A DNA stretch of 33,095 bases from Acidobacteriota bacterium. GTDB lineage: Bacteria > Acidobacteriota > UBA6911. Of the stretch, positions 883 to 33,077 are shown in pieces. Position numbers and translations under genes: made by a program. Location: the NCBI GenBank assembly GCA_031271905.1, contig JAISUT010000062.1:1-33095 (forward strand). Direction: 5' to 3'. The notes under the pieces are model-generated. The model ran no database searches. It saw only the letters and a list, made by a program, of their open reading frames with translations, and had not been told where the DNA came from. How positions within the stretch are numbered: position 1 is the stretch's first letter; every line of letters starts with the position of its first letter.

Positions 883-1785
883 TCACTTGCCGACCGCTAG
901 GAGCGGGCGCATCCTGCCAGCGTCCCCGACGCCGCATCCGCAGCCATCGTCACCGGTGGCGTCGTCGGTGGAGATGACGGGCAACACCTCCACCTTGCCG
1001 CCGGGGAGATGGCGGATGGAGAAGTCCAGCCCGAAGACCCGCCGCAAGTTCTCCCGCGTCAGGACTTCCGCCACGCCTCCTTGGCAAAGCGCCTCCCCCT
1101 GCGCCACCAAGATGGCGCGGTCGCAGAAGGCGCCCAGCAGGTTGATCTCGTGCGAGACGATCAGCGTGGCGAGGTTCTTCCGGCGCGTGATGTCGCGCAC
1201 CAGGCGCATCAGCTCCACCTGGTAGTTGACGTCCAAGTTCGCCGTGAACTCGTCCAGCAGCAGGATGGGGGTGTCCTGCGCCAGCGCCCGCGCCAAGCCC
1301 AGCCGTTGGCGCTCCCCGCCGGAAAGCTCCGAGACGCGGGCGTCCCGGTAGCGCGTCAGCGCCGTCATCTCCAAGGCTTCCAGCACGATCCCCTCGTCTT
1401 CCGCCGACTCGAAGCCGAGCCGCGAAAGATGCGGCGCCCGCCCCTGCATGGCGAACTGGAACACCGTCTGATAGTCCGACACGCCGCCGTTTTGCGGCAC
1501 CATCGCGATCTCGCGGGCGATCTCCCGGCGCTTCAAAGAGGATATCGGCACGCCCCCCCGCAAGTAGACCTCCCCGCCCAGCGGCGGCAGGATCCTGTCC
1601 AGAAGGCGCAGGATGGTCGTCTTGCCGGAACCGTTGGGGCCGACGATGCCGGTCACCGTCCCCGCCGCAAGGCGGAAGGAGACGCCTTTCACGATCGGGC
1701 GGCGGTAGTCGAAGCGCAGGTCGCGGGCTTCGAGCATGGCCCCGCCCCCGTCCGCCCCGGTTGTCGCTGCCAAGATGGCGGTCAT
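883..1785 (-). CDS. btuD: Vitamin B12 ABC transporter ATP-binding protein BtuD
   Basis: This is the cytoplasmic ATPase (300 residues) of a FecCD/BtuCD-type importer. Visible motifs are Walker A GPNGSGKTT near residue 50, Q-loop MVPQN, signature LSGGERQRLGLARAL, Walker B ILLLDEFTANLD and H-loop SHEI. The start ATG at 1785 overlaps the btuC stop (ATGA) and follows a GGGGGAG ribosome site by 7 bases. The family alone cannot separate B12, heme and siderophore substrates; the cobalamin riboswitch ahead of the operon points to B12 or a related corrinoid. The last 30 residues form an unusual Gly/Asp-rich tail with a CGCG cluster, which could bind metal or be a lineage-specific extension. Confidence 0.88.
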   Translation of the reverse strand: MTAILAATTGADGGGAMLEARDLRFDYRRPIVKGVSFRLAAGTVTGIVGPNGSGKTTILRLLDRILPPLGGEVYLRGGVPISSLKRREIAREIAMVPQNGGVSDYQTVFQFAMQGRAPHLSRLGFESAEDEGIVLEALEMTALTRYRDARVSELSGGERQRLGLARALAQDTPILLLDEFTANLDVNYQVELMRLVRDITRRKNLATLIVSHEINLLGAFCDRAILVAQGEALCQGGVAEVLTRENLRRVFGLDFSIRHLPGGKVEVLPVISTDDATGDDGCGCGVGDAGRMRPLLAVGK

Positions 1786-2888
1786 AGCGAACTCCCCCTT
1801 TTGCTGTGCAGCAGGTAGATGAAAAGTGGCGCGCCGGCGAGGGCGGTGACGATCCCCACCGGCAATTCGGCGGGCGAGAGCACCGTGCGCGCCAAGGTGT
1901 CCGCCAAAAGCGTGAAGATCGCGCCGAACAGGAAGACCGTCGGCACCAAGATGCGGTTGTCCCCGCCGAACATCATGCGCCCTAGGTGCGGGCAGATCAG
2001 CCCGATGTAGGCGATGGGGCCGCTGACCGAGACGACCGCCCCGGTGATGACCGAGGCGATGACATAGACGGCGGTCTTCACCTTGCGCACGTCCACCCCC
2101 AGGATGAGCGCATCCTCCTCCCCCAGGCTGATCAGGTTCAGGTTGTGCGAGAGGAGGAAGAGCAGGAAGACGCCGCCGAAGACCAGCCCGAGCACCGGGT
2201 AGACCGAGGCGTCCACCGGACGGCTCAAGTCGCCTATCAGCCAGTAGAAGATGCCCCGTATGTCGGCTTGGTTGACGCTGGTCAGGAGGAAGACGTTGAT
2301 CGACGAGAGGAACGACGCCAACACGATGCCCGCCAGCAGCAGGCGCTGCGAATCCCCCCCCGGACGCCGGCGCGAGCCGCCGGCGATGACGTAGACCGCG
2401 CCGACGGTCAGCGCCGCGCCGAGGAAGGCGGCGACGGGCCGCGCAAAGACGAAGCCCCCGCCCACGCCCACGCCGCCGGCGACGGCAAGTCCGAGCCAGC
2501 CCGCGAAGATCGAATAGAGGATGGTCCCGAGCGACGCGCCGGTCGAGACGCCCAGGACGTAAGGGTCGGCGAGGGGGTTGCGCAACAGCGATTGGAACGC
2601 CGTCCCCGCGACGGCGAGCGACGCGCCGACCAGCGAGCCTAGGAGCGCCCTCGGCAGGCGGACGGAAAAGAGCACCGCAGCCATCGGGTCGCCGCCCGCA
2701 TCCCCCCCCGACAGACGCCGCAGGACGAGCGCCAGCGCCTTCCCCACCGGGATGCGCACGCTCCCGATGTTCAAGGAGACGGCGAGCGCCAGCAACCAGG
2801 CGCCTAGCAACGCCAAGGTGAAGGCTGCGATCTTGGTCTTGGACAGGGCGCCGGAGGACTGCGCCGCCTTTCCCGCAGGCAGGTTCAC
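1782..2888 (-). CDS. btuC: Vitamin B12 ABC transporter permease BtuC
   Basis: This is an inner-membrane permease of the FecCD family. The family motif region RLPRALLGSLVGASLAVAG is followed by FQSLLRNPLADPYVLG, with about ten hydrophobic helices after an N-terminal helix (FTLALLGAWLLALAVSL). I place the start at the GTG at 2888-2886, giving 368 residues: it overlaps the btuF stop (GTGA) and has GGAGG 7 bases upstream. A longer reading from 3017 would overlap most of the btuF C-terminus and encode low-complexity sequence, so it is unlikely. The gene couples BtuF delivery outside to BtuD ATP hydrolysis inside. Confidence 0.88.
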   Translation of the reverse strand: MNLPAGKAAQSSGALSKTKIAAFTLALLGAWLLALAVSLNIGSVRIPVGKALALVLRRLSGGDAGGDPMAAVLFSVRLPRALLGSLVGASLAVAGTAFQSLLRNPLADPYVLGVSTGASLGTILYSIFAGWLGLAVAGGVGVGGGFVFARPVAAFLGAALTVGAVYVIAGGSRRRPGGDSQRLLLAGIVLASFLSSINVFLLTSVNQADIRGIFYWLIGDLSRPVDASVYPVLGLVFGGVFLLFLLSHNLNLISLGEEDALILGVDVRKVKTAVYVIASVITGAVVSVSGPIAYIGLICPHLGRMMFGGDNRILVPTVFLFGAIFTLLADTLARTVLSPAELPVGIVTALAGAPLFIYLLHSKRGSSL

Positions 2889-3886
2889 TGGAACGCCTCC
2901 GGATGGAGTTTTTGCGCCAGATCCTCCACGCCGTCCACGAACAGCGGCGAAGGGTGTTGCAGATATTCGCTCAGGAAATGGACGCGCCCTTCTTTGACCG
3001 CCCGCAGCTCCCGCCACCCCGGGGTCTTGCGGAAGTCCGGGAGCGGGTCGCCCGTGTGCTCGATGGTCAGGATCACGTCCGGGTCTTGCGCCAGCACCTG
3101 CTCCAGGCTGTATCGGGGGTAGAAGTCCTCGACGTCGGCGGAGATCGAGCGCACCCCCGCCAGCGCCAGCGCCTCGTTTTCAAAGGTGAGGCGGCCGGGG
3201 GCCAGGAGCGGGTCGAACCAGGTGATGAAAAAACCCCGCAGCGGAGGGCGTCCGGCGAGCTTGCCCCGCACCGCGTCAAGGCGCGCGTGCATCTCGGCGA
3301 CCAACCGCCCCCCTTCCGCCTCGCAGTCGATGACGCGGCCGATCTCTTCGACCGTCGCGAATATCGCCTCCAGCGAGCGTGGCGCGGTGACGTAGACCGG
3401 CACCCCCAAGTCGGCGAGTTTCGTGACGGCGGCGCGGTCGTTCCCCGCCGTGGAGGAGATGACCAGATCCGGCGCCGCATCCAGGATCAGCTCGTAGTTG
3501 GGGTTCAGCAGGTCGCCGATCCTAGGCTTGCCCTTGGCGGCCTCGGGCCAGTTGCACTGCGTGGTGACGCCGATGAGCCTCGCCTCCGCCCCGAGCAGGT
3601 AGATGTTCTCGGTGACGTTCGGGGCGAGGGAGATGATGCGTCGCGGGTGCCTGGGGACGCGCACCTCGCGCCCCGTCCCGTCGGTGCGCGTCACGACGTC
3701 CCCGCCCCCGCCCGCAGCCTTCCGGGACGCGCCCGCATCGCCAGGGGCGCCCTGGACGCACCCGTGCAGGCAACCGAGCAACAACGCCAACGCCACCCAC
3801 GACGCGGCGCAGGGGCGGCTCGCAGGGGCGGACGACGACCTTGCGATGACGGGTGCGGAGCGGGAGGCGGCGGATTCGAGGCGCAT
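2885..3886 (-). CDS. btuF: Cobalamin-binding lipoprotein BtuF
   Basis: This is the substrate-binding protein of the importer (333 residues). A hydrophobic N-terminal segment (ASWVALALLLGC) runs into a lipobox-like LHGC around residue 43, predicting a lipoprotein. The mature part is a class III (BtuF/FhuD-like) fold with the family signature RIISLAPNVTENIYLLGA, IGVT--CNWP, KPRIGDL-NPNYELI and APDLVI. The start ATG at 3886 sits directly behind a hairpin that can hide its AAGAG ribosome site, which suggests riboswitch control of translation. It is the first gene of btuFCD, with overlapping stops and starts throughout. Confidence 0.88.
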   Translation of the reverse strand: MRLESAASRSAPVIARSSSAPASRPCAASWVALALLLGCLHGCVQGAPGDAGASRKAAGGGGDVVTRTDGTGREVRVPRHPRRIISLAPNVTENIYLLGAEARLIGVTTQCNWPEAAKGKPRIGDLLNPNYELILDAAPDLVISSTAGNDRAAVTKLADLGVPVYVTAPRSLEAIFATVEEIGRVIDCEAEGGRLVAEMHARLDAVRGKLAGRPPLRGFFITWFDPLLAPGRLTFENEALALAGVRSISADVEDFYPRYSLEQVLAQDPDVILTIEHTGDPLPDFRKTPGWRELRAVKEGRVHFLSEYLQHPSPLFVDGVEDLAQKLHPEAFQ

Positions 3887-3920
3887 TTCAGATCTCTTTC
3901 TCGCGAAGAGCGTGCTGAAA
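3886..3920 (-). promoter_or_regulatory. Start-codon-proximal hairpin, candidate riboswitch expression platform
   Basis: On the minus strand TTTCAG (3920-3915) pairs with CTGAAA (3891-3886), and inside it CTCTT (3910-3906) pairs with AAGAG (3898-3894). The AAGAG arm is the presumed btuF ribosome site and the outer arm reaches the first base of the ATG. This fits a translational OFF structure formed when cobalamin binds, but the pairing was judged by eye. Confidence 0.5.
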
Positions 3921-3927
3921 AAAGCGA

Positions 3928-4125
3928 CCGGGGCAGGTTTCCTGACTTACGGGTGGTGATTTTCGCCGCGCCCTCCGCCTTCCCCGTCGCGAAACGAGTG
4001 GCTGGCTTGCCTGCGGCAAGACCGTGGAGGGCAGACTCCCCGATTACAGTGGCGGGACCGTGCGGGATTCTCACCCGCTTCCCTTGGTTGGAACCCGTCC
4101 TCGCGGGCAGGCTCGTCAACCCCGG
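3928..4125 (-). ncRNA. Cobalamin riboswitch
   Basis: Read on the minus strand, the aptamer has the hallmark blocks in order: GGGAAGCGGGTGAGAATCC, then CGGTCCCGCCACTGTAA, and near the 3' end AAGTCAGGAAACCTGCC (B12 box region). The outer stem P1 can form from CCGGGG (4125-4120) with CCCCGG (3933-3928). It lies directly upstream of btuF, the expected place for feedback control of B12 uptake by adenosylcobalamin or another corrinoid. Confidence 0.93.
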
Positions 4126-4141
4126 CGCATTTCAGAAACAA

Positions 4142-5328: not shown

Positions 5329-7068
5329 TCACCGCCACTTGTCCACCGAGGCGCTCGCCAGGTAGCCGAAGTCGCCCGCCTGCCAGAAGAAGTTGGTCCC
5401 CCCGCCCAGCGACAGGACGTTGATGTTGCCGGGGCTGCGGAACTGCGGGATCTCCGCGTCCCTGGGCATCTTCATCCATGTGGCCAGCGGCTCCTGCCCC
5501 TGCCTGCCGTAAGGCAGGACGAAGTTCTGCACGGCGTAGTAGTCGTCGAGCCACGCCCCGACGGTGACCTTGGTGTTCTTGTGTATCCAGTCGATCAACT
5601 GCTCCTTGGAGCCGAACCCCTCGTTCTCCTTGAGCTGTTTGATGATCGTCGGATCCAGCAGCAGGGTCGTCGAGGAGAACGGGCTGACGAACTTCAGCCA
5701 GAACGGTATCTGGTCGTGGAACGGCTTGCCGAAGCTCTGGTCCGGGTGCGTGAAGCCCCAGCCGAGGAAGGTGCTGACCACGCTCTCCCCCGGCTTGAAG
5801 CCCTTCTGCACATGCAGCGGGTTCCAGCCTTCGGGCAGATCCTCCTCGTTCTCCGGGAAGCAGAGGTTGTTGTAGTTGTAATTGTTCCCCAAGCTCCCCA
5901 TGTATATCTCCCCGGGCTTGCCCGAGGCGCCGAGGTTGAGGGATATGAGCGTCCACGCCCTGCCAATGACGGCGTTGGAGTGGTTGAACGGGCCGAGCGC
6001 GCCGATGCCGGAGTTCATCTTGAGCTCCTCGCGCACGGGCCCGTTGACCACGACCATGCCGGCGAACGAGGTGGTCGATGTGGAGATGGAGGTCCCGCCC
6101 ATGGACGCTATCGCCAAGATGACCGGCAGGTGCTCGGGCTTGGCGCCGGCCATGACCGCGTTGACCGCCACCTGCTCCACGGTGTAGCTCCACGCCTCGT
6201 GCGGCGAGGACGCCTGCATCGCGCCGACGACCTCGTCCGGTTCGTGGCTCGTGCCTTTGAGCATCTCCGCGACGCGCGCCTCCGTGGGCAACACGACCGG
6301 CAGGCCGTCCGTCCAGCCATTCTCCAAGAACAGCTTGTGCAGGTTCTCCTCGGTGTCGGCGGCGACCAGGCGCGGCGTCGGCCTCTCGATGACGCCGCCC
6401 GAGGCGTCTTCGGCGCTCAGGGGCCGGGTGATGGCGTCGATGATCTCGCCCAGCACCGGCTTCCCGGTGAGGGGATCGCTCCCTTGGAGGTATTTGTTGC
6501 ACAACTCCGCCGGGATGCCCGTGATGGGGTGCGGGACGAAGGTGAAGCGGAAGCCCGGCATGCCTTTCTTGAAGGCGTAGGTCTTCACCAAGTCTTCGAA
6601 AGTCCTGGTGACGACCGGGGCGGTGGGGATGCCTAACTTTTCAACTGTGAGGGAATGGCCGACGACCGACGGCGAGCAGGAGCTTCAATGCCCCACCCCC
6701 ATGATCATCGCGTGCCCCTTCTCCTTGATCTCCGCCCACAACTTGGGGTCGTCGTCGAAATAGGTGCCGGTCTTCGTCCGCACCTCCCACTTGGTCTTGG
6801 GGTATCTCTCGCCGAGCAGCTTCTGCATCTCGGTGAAGAACTGGTGCGTGTCGGTGAAACCGATATCGACGATGTAGACGGTCTTGCCGTCCAACGAGTC
6901 GAGCCGCGGCGCCATCGGCACCCGGGCGATGGGCGGCGGCTGGCCGAGCGGGTTCAGCACCGCGACCTTGGCGTCGTCGGCCAGGACGGGCGCCGGGGCG
7001 GGCGCGGCCGCAAGGAGCAGGAACGCGACCAGGGCGCAGCCCGGCAACAGGCGAAGTCTCTTCATCAT
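5329..7068 (-). CDS. Exported UGSC-type selenoprotein (in-frame UGA = Sec)
   Basis: Two open frames, 7068-6688 and 6684-5329, lie in the same phase and are separated only by a TGA at 6687-6685. Read through, they give one 579-residue protein with Sec128-Ser-Ser-Cys131, a redox-type U-x-x-C motif matching the UGSC (seleno)protein family as I recall it. The stretch after the UGA (LTVEKLGIPTAPVVT) has no internal start and resembles the family. A paralogue at 31170-33077 aligns across the join without a break. Residues 1-30 form a Sec signal peptide (ALVAFLLLAAAPAP, likely cut after VLA), so the protein is probably periplasmic. The C-terminal part holds WTDGLPVVLPT, AVNAVMAGAKPEHLPVI and IGALGPFNHSNAVIGRA blocks shared with the paralogue. 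The start is ATG 7068 or 7065 behind GAGGAGG. The reaction is unknown. If Sec machinery is absent, the same region would be two fragments. Confidence 0.82.
6658..6687 (-). promoter_or_regulatory. UGA selenocysteine codon with candidate bacterial SECIS hairpin
   Basis: The TGA is at 6687-6685. Downstream, GCCG (6673-6670) can pair with CGGC (6661-6658), leaving the 8-base loop UCGGUCGU. The loop has GGUC about 18 bases after the UGA, as in the apical loop of the E. coli fdhF SECIS. The stem is short, so this is only a candidate; bacterial SECIS elements are poorly conserved. Confidence 0.5.
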
Positions 7069-7121
7069 CACACCTCCTCAAACCAAGGGACATCAGAAAA
7101 ACAACCCGCCGTCGGCGGCGC

Positions 7122-7235: not shown

Positions 7236-8339
7236 CTACTTCACGATCTGGATCTTGTCCGACCAGCCGTCTTCGAAGTTGCTCCAGCCCGAGTTCATGC
7301 CGTAGGGGCATCGCTGCAGGACGGCCTCGATGCGTCGGATCTGGCCATTCTCGATCTTGAACAGCTCGGCGATCTGCCATGTCCACGGGGCGACCGGGCC
7401 GCCGACGACTTCGCGCCCGCCAGGCGCCGTGGCGTGGCGGGTCTTGCCCGCCGCATGGTCGAAGAATCCGAAGGCGAAGACGATGCCGTGCTCGCGGTCT
7501 ACGGCGACGAAACGGCGGTCGCGGATGCGGGTCACGAAATAGAGCAACCCGGACTCGAACTGCTCCTTGCACCCCCAGGCCGACGAATAGGTCATGGAGG
7601 TCTTGGGGTCGGGACGCGTCACGCCGGGGGGCAGGGGGGTGTTGGTGGACTGCATCCCGTTCTCCAGCCGGTCACAGTCGTCGGTGAAGGGGTAGTCGCC
7701 CTTGCCGTCGTTCTTCTGCATGCCGGTGAAATACTTGTTCGCGACGGTGATCAGCTCCTCGCGCGAGGGCCGCTCCGCCTCGGGGATGACCTCCCTGTAG
7801 ACGGCGTGCGGCTCGACGCCCTTTTCGATGCTGGCGGCCGCCGGGGGCATGTTGGTCCCCATGCCGCTGTCGGCGCGGATCACCAGTTGCTCGGCCTCGG
7901 TGATGCGGTCGTCCACGATCTTCAGGCGCAGGGCGACCGCGACAGGGTCGCCGCCCTTGGACATGTCGTCGGCCTCCTCGCGCGCCGTGCCGATGAATGC
8001 GACCTGGTTGGTTTCGACGTCGGGCACGTAGAACTTGTAGGTTCCCTTGCCCACCATGCTGGACCAAAGCCCCTCGTCGCCCAGCGGCAACTCCACGCCG
8101 TTCTCAGTGAAGCGCACCGTGGCGGCGAACAGCTCCGGGCTGACGGTGTGCGCGAGCATCGCGTCCATGTACTTGTCCACGAAGCCGTTCAGATCCTCGG
8201 CCGTGTACTGCTTCGCCTGGGCGGGCTGCCCGGACGACGCGGAGTCCGTCTCGGTCGTCGCAGGCTTCTGGCACGCGGCGAGAAGCAACAGCGACGAAAC
8301 GGCGGCGATCAACAATACGGCTCTCTTTCGTATCATCAT
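7236..8339 (-). CDS. Lipoprotein of unknown function upstream of the selenoprotein
   Basis: A 367-residue protein with a clear lipoprotein signal: VLLIAAVSSLLLLAAC, lipobox LLAAC ending near residue 23, then a Thr/Ser/Gln-rich linker. The mature part seems to hold two related alpha+beta halves of the NTF2/SnoaL-like type, with a C-terminal motif QIRRIEAVLQRCPYGMNSGW. That ending reminds me of the DUF8021 family, a recollection rather than a search result. Cysteines at CDRL, WGCKE and QRCPYG are candidates for disulfide or metal contacts. It shares strand with the selenoprotein 167 bases downstream, so the two may be one transcript and act together outside the inner membrane. The start may be ATG 8339 or, for better spacing from GGGGGA, ATG 8336. 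The preceding 8340-8460 is unusually AT-rich and probably holds the promoter. Confidence 0.75.
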   Translation of the reverse strand: MMIRKRAVLLIAAVSSLLLLAACQKPATTETDSASSGQPAQAKQYTAEDLNGFVDKYMDAMLAHTVSPELFAATVRFTENGVELPLGDEGLWSSMVGKGTYKFYVPDVETNQVAFIGTAREEADDMSKGGDPVAVALRLKIVDDRITEAEQLVIRADSGMGTNMPPAAASIEKGVEPHAVYREVIPEAERPSREELITVANKYFTGMQKNDGKGDYPFTDDCDRLENGMQSTNTPLPPGVTRPDPKTSMTYSSAWGCKEQFESGLLYFVTRIRDRRFVAVDREHGIVFAFGFFDHAAGKTRHATAPGGREVVGGPVAPWTWQIAELFKIENGQIRRIEAVLQRCPYGMNSGWSNFEDGWSDKIQIVK

Positions 8340-31169: not shown

Positions 31170-33077
31170 TTATTTTCCGGCTTCCGTAAGCGTTGCGCCG
31201 GTTATCTTCTTGATGTAGTAGTATGTGTTTACGCCGTTGTTTTGGCGAAGAGTGCCGCTGCCGTAACTGCCCATTGGGTACATGCCGAGCGTCTGCCCCG
31301 ACATTGAACCCGCGACAAAAATCGCAATGCCGTCCGTGCTGATTACAGGCACCGTGCCGCCCGATTGGCAGTCGCTGACGGACAACCCGCGCATTGTGCC
31401 GCTCTCTGCCAGTTTCCGCACACCCTTTTGCAGGTTGGCAGGCAGTTTGTCCCACGGCAGTCTGTGGTAGTCGCGAATGTGATCAAGCAGTTTCTCACGC
31501 GTGAACCCTGCGGCGGCAAGTTGACGTGCCTGTCCGGGGTACAGTATCAGAATATAGTTTCGGCGCATAAGTTGCGCGGGGTCTGTCGCCTGCAACGCGT
31601 GCAGGAACGGATTGACAACGCCCTTTGCCACCTGCTCCAACGTTGGCGCGTCGCCGCGTGCGCGTTGCGTGATTTTCTCCAAATCCGCATCGAAGCCATA
31701 CGTCCATATTCCCGACGGCATAGCCTGGTCGCCGAGCTGAAACACACCGTCGATGTAAAATATTTCCTCAATCATCACCGTGCTATCCTGCGGCGAGAAG
31801 CCCTGCGAAACCGCATACGGCTCCCATGGGCTGAGTTCCGAGTTCTCGGCGAATACGAGGTTGCAGAATCTGGACGCTTCACCGTACATACCGCCGTCGA
31901 ACTTGTAGTTAATCCACCCGCAGTTGAGTGCGCACAGGCTGATTGCGCGGCCGATTGAGTTGTTGGCGCGGTTGCCGGGACCGAAGCAGCCCATTTGTCC
32001 GCTAATGCCCAGTTCCTTCGCGACAGGTCCGCCAACGTTGACGAGCAGGCTGTCGCCGTTGATTGCGGCAAGCAGATGATACGAGTAGAAATCCGGGTCG
32101 CAGAGCATTTCAACCGCCGTGATAATCACGGGCAGATATTCCGGCTTCGCACCCGCCATTACGGCGTTGACGGCAATCTTCTCAATGGTGACGATGCCGC
32201 GTCCCGGTTGCATTACGCCCGGTATGACCTCGTCCGGCTTGCGACTCGTGCCGGTCAGCATTTTAGCGACTGCTTCAGGCGTCGGCGGCGCAACAGCGAT
32301 GCCGTCGCTGAGTCCGTGTTCGAGGAAGTAATCCTGAAACTTACAAAAAGCGTCAGAATAGTCCGCGCCCTCGAAACGCAGGTTGGCGAAGTCGTACTCA
32401 AACGGTTTCGGGTGCTGTTCCTCTGCTGTCAACGGGTCGGTCAGCGCGTGGACGATAACGTCAAAGTAGTCCGCGACAATCGGAACAAACGTCTTCGGAT
32501 TGTTGCCCGCGGCACACCAACGTTCGGCGTTCACCGCGACCATTCGGACGGTCGGCATTCCGTGAACCATTGCACTGCGCCGGGCTTGCTCGATAGTCGT
32601 GTCTAGGCAGACGAGTAGACCCGGTTTGCCGGAACGTTCATATGCGACTGCAGGCTCGGTGTCCGTGCCGCCCGTGTGGCGCATTCCGGCTATGAACGCG
32701 TCATAGTTGCGCAGAACCTCGGCGTCAGCGTCCGCGGACGCGAGGTTCGCCGTGCCCTGCACATAATCGACTGTTGCGGTCGGGTACGTTGCCAACAACT
32801 GTGCCTGCAACGGTTTGAGGAATACGTCATCGTCGGGCTTCTCGCGGAAGATGACAATGCGCTTGCCGTCCAACGTGTCAAGACGCGGGACGGACAATCC
32901 GCAGAAGTCACGTATGTCCGGCTTCGCGCGGGGGTTCAAGACTTCCAGCGTTTCAGCCCTTCCGGACGCGCATCCTGCGGGAACCGCCAAGGCGGACGCG
33001 CCCACGGCCGCCGTCGCGGCGCCTTTGAGGAAACTCCTGCGGGTGGAACCGTCCTTTTCATCCGATTTGTCGTGCAT
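31170..33077 (-). CDS. Tat-exported UGSC-family paralogue with Thr-Gly-Gly-Thr in place of U-S-S-C
   Basis: A 635-residue protein from ATG 33077 (AGGAG upstream). The N-terminus has a twin-arginine motif STRRSFLKG, a hydrophobic stretch and an AGC lipobox-like end (residues 12-36), so it is probably exported folded and perhaps lipidated. It aligns along its length with the selenoprotein at 5329-7068: EVLNPRAKP, RLDTLDGKRIVIF, HGLSDGIAVAPPTPEAV-KMLTGTSRKPDEV, AVNAVMAGAKPEYLPVI, GNRANNSIGRAISL. At the redox site it reads MRHTGGTD (residues 135-138 are TGGT; bases 32664-32675), so both Sec/Cys positions are Thr. It therefore cannot do the same chemistry by that site. Base composition of the body looks lower in GC than the window, while the signal region looks host-like. 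Function unknown. Confidence 0.85.
   Translation of the reverse strand: MHDKSDEKDGSTRRSFLKGAATAAVGASALAVPAGCASGRAETLEVLNPRAKPDIRDFCGLSVPRLDTLDGKRIVIFREKPDDDVFLKPLQAQLLATYPTATVDYVQGTANLASADADAEVLRNYDAFIAGMRHTGGTDTEPAVAYERSGKPGLLVCLDTTIEQARRSAMVHGMPTVRMVAVNAERWCAAGNNPKTFVPIVADYFDVIVHALTDPLTAEEQHPKPFEYDFANLRFEGADYSDAFCKFQDYFLEHGLSDGIAVAPPTPEAVAKMLTGTSRKPDEVIPGVMQPGRGIVTIEKIAVNAVMAGAKPEYLPVIITAVEMLCDPDFYSYHLLAAINGDSLLVNVGGPVAKELGISGQMGCFGPGNRANNSIGRAISLCALNCGWINYKFDGGMYGEASRFCNLVFAENSELSPWEPYAVSQGFSPQDSTVMIEEIFYIDGVFQLGDQAMPSGIWTYGFDADLEKITQRARGDAPTLEQVAKGVVNPFLHALQATDPAQLMRRNYILILYPGQARQLAAAGFTREKLLDHIRDYHRLPWDKLPANLQKGVRKLAESGTMRGLSVSDCQSGGTVPVISTDGIAIFVAGSMSGQTLGMYPMGSYGSGTLRQNNGVNTYYYIKKITGATLTEAGK

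Follow-up and report, generated by a model that had tools for sequence, protein, structure and literature searches.

A TGA-interrupted gene in an Acidobacteriota genome reads as one exported, two-domain UGSC-type selenoprotein

We analysed a 33,095-nt stretch of DNA (the window), contig JAISUT010000062.1 of the Acidobacteriota bacterium assembly GCA_031271905.1 (3.40 Mb genome, 99.8% complete). On the minus strand, one long frame is interrupted by a single internal TGA before it ends at a terminal TGA (Table 1). Translation places the internal TGA at residue 128, the first position of U-S-S-C in GVGH-U-S-S-C, in agreement with an earlier reading made from the letters alone (the sequence-only reading), which had described an otherwise continuous frame broken at this point. 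That reading had also proposed an N-terminal signal peptide, and MMKRLRLLPGCALVAFLLLAAAPAPAPVLA can indeed be read straight from the window protein. Residues 1 to 20 have low pLDDT in the predicted structure described below, and hydrophobic N-termini are also found in relatives (loci L036 and L038-L041). Elsewhere in the window, a cobalamin riboswitch (3915-4139, minus strand, 89.5 bits) lies ahead of a BtuFCD-type ABC transporter operon (883-3886), the operon being read from the open reading frames.

Table 1. Coordinates of the features discussed, as positions in the window.
Feature	Position	Strand	Basis
Complete selenoprotein gene, 579 aa including predicted Sec128	5329..7068	-	frame and Pfam UGSC match across the join; terminal TGA 5329-5331
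Shine-Dalgarno AGGAGG, 5' of ATG 7068	7073..7078	-	sequence
Signal peptide, putatively residues 1-30	6979..7068	-	read from sequence
UGSC domain (PF24696), residues 37-189; flavodoxin-like/Rossmannoid in model	6502..6960	-	Pfam match and predicted structure
Putative Sec codon TGA (U128); resolving Cys131 three residues later	6685..6687	-	paralogue and homologue comparison
Putative SECIS hairpin of bacterial type, with GGUC loop 6667-6664 on stem 6673-6668/6663-6658 (5 of 6 pairs)	6658..6673	-	family-level support
C-terminal domain of ~345 aa, no Pfam/NCBIfam family, no assignable PDB match	5332..6378	-	profile and structure searches
Upstream exported protein, no family match	7236..8339	-	homologues beside UGSC genes in loci L039, L046 and L051
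Paralogue, Tat-signal lipoprotein-like two-domain UGSC protein, no Sec/Cys (TGGT)	31170..33077	-	profile match and alignment

The genome encodes the machinery for selenocysteine insertion. All four of selA, selB, selC and selD, which the sequence-only reading had proposed to look for, are present: the tRNA-Sec scored 70 bits, with ARAGORN calling the same tRNA, and selB (365 bits), selD (365 bits) and selA (554 bits) all exceeded their curated cut-offs. Further, selD itself carries an in-frame TGA (AAGUAAK) and would thus be a Sec-containing SelD. Eleven UGSC domains were found in the genome, every one fused to the same C-terminal domain. Six of these paralogues have one TGA each, always at the same motif position (GHUSSC, GHUSQC, GHUSVC, GHUSLC, SGUDGC and AGUWGC), and UxxC is invariant among them. 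The other five, four of which carry twin-arginine signals, have neither Sec nor Cys at the site. One of the five is the second UGSC gene of the window, which had been said to show no stop when aligned across the join; the alignment holds, while the site reads TGGT, so this paralogue supports continuity of the frame and not the catalytic residue. In a scan of homologues elsewhere, limited to one genome per species and covering 80 loci, the codon at the Sec site was TGA in 62 cases, TGC in 15 and another codon in 3. Close orthologues that all carry a stop and a separate downstream start would have spoken for two proteins; instead, TGA or Cys lies inside one continuous frame. A selB gene above cut-off was detected in 30 of 32 genomes with the TGA form vs 6 of 15 with the Cys form, many of these genomes being metagenome bins of unknown completeness.

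That UGA has been reassigned to, or is read through as, another residue such as Trp in this genome is extremely improbable: UGA codons do occur inside several frames, but those found in frame sit at the UGSC motif site and the SelD Sec site, the window gene itself terminates with TGA, and relatives have Cys rather than Trp at the position. A true stop, giving two proteins or marking a decaying gene, is likewise very unlikely. It could draw on the nearest start-like codon past the TGA, a TTG at 6591 located 32 codons on and preceded by a weak AGGA, which also qualifies the earlier claim that no start or ribosome site exists near the join. With this caveat, the claim stands. Compared with locus L036, the 31 codons in between show 9 synonymous and 3 non-synonymous changes and are kept as protein, which implies that they are translated. 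This coding conservation directly after the TGA, a TGA shared at this codon by 6 paralogues and 62 homologues, with mostly Cys in the rest, and the Sec machinery of the genome all argue against termination. Based on sequence and genome evidence, the window gene is almost certainly one intact selenoprotein gene with an export signal and with TGA128 encoding Sec. The proposal that the seemingly split gene is one exported UGSC-type selenoprotein is borne out by the UGSC domain, the Sec machinery and the homologues alike. Standard gene callers are likely to split such UGSC genes into two.

Downstream of the TGA, genes of the TGA form contain a hairpin at +14 to +29, in most cases with a GGUC loop, which resembles the SECIS loop of E. 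coli fdhF. Mean stem pairing in TGA genes was 4.74 of 6 vs 4.05 ± 0.09 after synonymous recoding (maximum 4.34, n = 1000) and 2.73 vs 2.50 ± 0.19 in Cys genes, values whose independence is overstated because the hairpin sequences are related. An Ala-Val dipeptide is encoded as GCG-GTC in 44 of 48 TGA genes vs 2 of 13 Cys genes, and counting pairs over 47 distinct sequences gives a consistent picture, with modest covariation. The window hairpin taken alone was no more stable than shuffled sequences in single-sequence folding (z 0.3 and 1.0). At the level of the family, the comparison thus supports a putative SECIS-type hairpin that is kept in TGA genes and not in Cys genes.

Assignment to the UGSC family was evaluated by the profile search that the sequence-only reading had suggested, with a divided result. 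The Pfam model PF24696 runs unbroken through the TGA with 107.2 bits (gathering cut-off 25), whereas the NCBIfam equivalog NF041046 gave 77.3 bits, below its curated cut-off of 125. The window protein is thus a divergent two-domain member. It shares the UxxC arrangement of Sec and Cys with the known family, in which Sec and Cys forms both exist, but differs in being exported and fused to a C-terminal domain. Neither the family nor fusion as such is new: PMC2398784 (2008) describes UGSC, and Fig. S1A of that paper contains a UGSC/Unknown_1 fusion in which the UGSC domain is joined to a conserved domain. This fusion may be the same architecture as that of the window protein. UGSC selenoproteins are among the commoner ones in aquatic metagenomes.

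To characterize both domains, an AlphaFold model was computed from 62 sequences, with Cys in place of Sec (pLDDT 92.4, pTM 0.90). For folding, the plasmid rows of one alignment were left out. The modelled N-terminal domain is an alternating beta-alpha-beta Rossmannoid sheet in which strand 120-126 is followed by Sec128 and a helix (131-144), with Cys131 predicted at the helix start. Its best structural match had a Z of 10.0 (2.5 Å over 113 residues) to flavodoxin-like/Rossmannoid folds, the best among the matches listed being AerR, CheY-like and PurE-like folds with Z of about 8-10. In case of the C-terminal domain, modelled alone with a pLDDT of 85, no Pfam or NCBIfam family matched among the 62 members, and Foldseek/VIA searches of the PDB with the full model and with the domain alone returned no assignable match (best Z 5.0, Foldseek E 0.5); we do not claim a new fold. 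A PDB sequence search with the UGSC protein family gave no match either. In haloarchaea and Roseovarius, the UGSC domain and the C-terminal domain are separate, adjacent genes. Conserved residues of the C-terminal domain include Asn, Arg and Glu. The domain has no invariant Ser, Thr or Cys that would suggest a pyruvoyl precursor site like that of PrdA/GrdE, and substrate activation must therefore differ from that in PrdA/GrdE.

We compared the UGSC domain with the selenoprotein subunits of glycine/betaine/sarcosine and D-proline reductases, GrdB and PrdB. The PrdB model TIGR04483 was matched by 9 of 62 members (best E 4e-4), and several others matched GrdB-type models. Profile alignment by hhalign yielded P values of 1.9e-6 against PrdB-like proteins, 4.7e-7 against GrdB and 1.6e-8 against both together, with Sec aligned on Sec; the reversed control gave 0.03 and the best of 60 column-permuted controls 0.09. 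A first comparison with GrdB restricted to the PF07355 stretch had given a P of only 0.025, since PF07355 stops just before the Sec motif, and the signal appears once the alignment is extended past Sec. No match to PF07355 (GRDB) was found in the 62 members or in the genome, which makes this a remote kinship and not membership. A sequence search of the PDB returned no GrdB or PrdB structure. In both groups, a strand leads into Sec and a helix and an E..GIPT segment come next, and thioredoxin-reductase-like neighbours occur in many relatives; UGSC differs in being a single short domain with another partner domain and, here, in being exported. These comparisons support a distant kinship between UGSC and the GrdB/PrdB Sec domain, at hhalign values of 90-96% that a shared Rossmannoid architecture could inflate. 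As a separate observation, PrdB-like proteins with in-frame TGA in other genomes (L122, L123, L127 and L128; PVUPGC, PVUPLC, GVUPLC and PAUPIU), of which that of L128 has a second TGA within the motif, apparently form a further PrdB-like selenoprotein group.

Gene neighbourhoods give information about possible redox partners and substrates. Near UGSC genes of either Cys or Sec form, a thioredoxin-reductase-like gene with CxxC was present at about 15 loci from Alpha-, Beta- and Deltaproteobacteria and Chloroflexi. Ramlibacter and Aminobacter, for example, have a Cys form with the TrxB-like gene adjacent to it. Among nine downstream TrxB-like copies that were measured, seven start at most 11 nt from the UGSC stop codon or overlap it. 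Only the Roseovarius copy passed the TrxB equivalog cut-off among those scanned, the others being divergent. Organic-acid transporters (TRAP/TTT) and CoA-handling enzymes (CoA transferase) also recur near UGSC genes in relatives. Neither these nor a TrxB-like gene adjoins the window gene, and no shared operon was found among the TGA genes of this genome, whose neighbours differ. Among the proteins of this genome is one of DsbD type, a possible electron route out of the cytoplasm. Two further neighbours were observed. One TGA paralogue (G000:C35; L133 5567-9213) has immediately upstream, and in the same orientation, a gene for a member of the linalool dehydratase/isomerase family (PF18566, 291 bits). 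In related genomes, a small lipoprotein-like domain, weakly DUF4352, usually comes straight after UGSC genes (17 loci, e.g. L041 5744-6442).

Taken as an enzyme, the window protein is probably a Sec-dependent, dithiol-recycled reductase of small organic substrates. SelB and tRNA-Sec would decode UGA128 as Sec, aided by the hairpin about 14 nt downstream. The fused C-terminal domain would bind and present an organic substrate, which the Sec128 selenolate would attack with delivery of two electrons, and Cys131 would resolve the adduct as an Se-S bridge. Re-reduction of this bridge would be carried out by a dithiol system. In cytosolic relatives this would be a thioredoxin-reductase-like flavoprotein devoted to the task, and in this organism probably a DsbD-type periplasmic pathway. 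Different paralogues would serve different substrates. We assign a probability of roughly 0.6 to the whole statement, which combines an exported selenoprotein, kinship with GrdB/PrdB and a dithiol-recycled reductase. Against the reductase mechanism stand the lack of a pyruvoyl-type precursor site in the C-terminal domain, the lack of a TrxB-like gene beside the window gene, and the 5 of 11 paralogues with neither Sec nor Cys, in which the fold evidently persists without the redox pair.

The strongest rival accepts the selenoprotein but takes UxxC for the site of a generic thiol/selenol oxidoreductase, whether peroxidase, disulfide reductase or isomerase, whose targets would be proteins or oxidants and which would not cleave a substrate. 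The UxxC spacing is like that of Trx-family motifs, PMC2398784 calls the UGSC fold likely Trx-like, and a TrxB-like neighbour would fit such an enzyme as well. Yet the predicted flavodoxin-like beta-alpha-beta model with its AerR, CheY-like and PurE-like matches does not favour a Trx-like fold, UGSC resembles GrdB/PrdB, and the large conserved partner domain together with catabolic neighbours (CoA transferase, TRAP/TTT transporters) suggests small organic substrates. We consider a generic oxidoreductase unlikely, if clearly more plausible than either termination or reassignment of the TGA. Together, the GrdB/PrdB link, the fixed partner domain, the thioredoxin-reductase-like partner and a genus in which one genome can hold 20 TGA copies yield a testable enzyme hypothesis.

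PheT of this genome is 60-64% identical to PheT of three bins named 'Acidobacteria', and the host is most likely an uncultured acidobacterium. All 10 genomes searched in the genus of the window organism hold 10 to 27 UGSC domains each, as opposed to a single domain in 1 of 5 genomes from other genera of the same family and a UGSC domain in 3 of 45 genomes from the wider class and phylum. In three fully counted genomes of the genus, TGA forms made up 18 of 19, 20 of 28 and 17 of 27 UGSC genes. Multiplication of UGSC genes, with as many as 20 TGA copies per genome, is genus-specific. A 2016 survey listed 33 UGSC genes across 26 organisms (PMC5029168), and our literature search found no report of a comparable UGSC expansion. 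Such numbers invite comparison with the RdhA reductive dehalogenase arrays of organohalide respirers, likewise multiplied exported reductases. RdhA reaches tens of copies in some genomes. Fold and cofactor differ from those of RdhA, and a respiratory role is only a hypothesis here. Tentatively, and with considerable doubt, the genus may possess a large set of Sec-dependent reductases (up to ~20 per genome), for the most part exported and descended from the GrdB/PrdB line. Each would act on a different organic substrate and draw on a periplasmic dithiol pathway, which would make the set a selenium counterpart of the arrays of reductive dehalogenases or secreted flavin reductases that serve anaerobic respiration or detoxification.

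The four Tat-signal UGSC paralogues of this genome have lost Sec and Cys while keeping both domains, which suggests a non-redox role. One of them is the paralogue in the window, and the other three stand in tandem on another contig (G000:C67:82310-87844), adjoining a radical-SAM protein.
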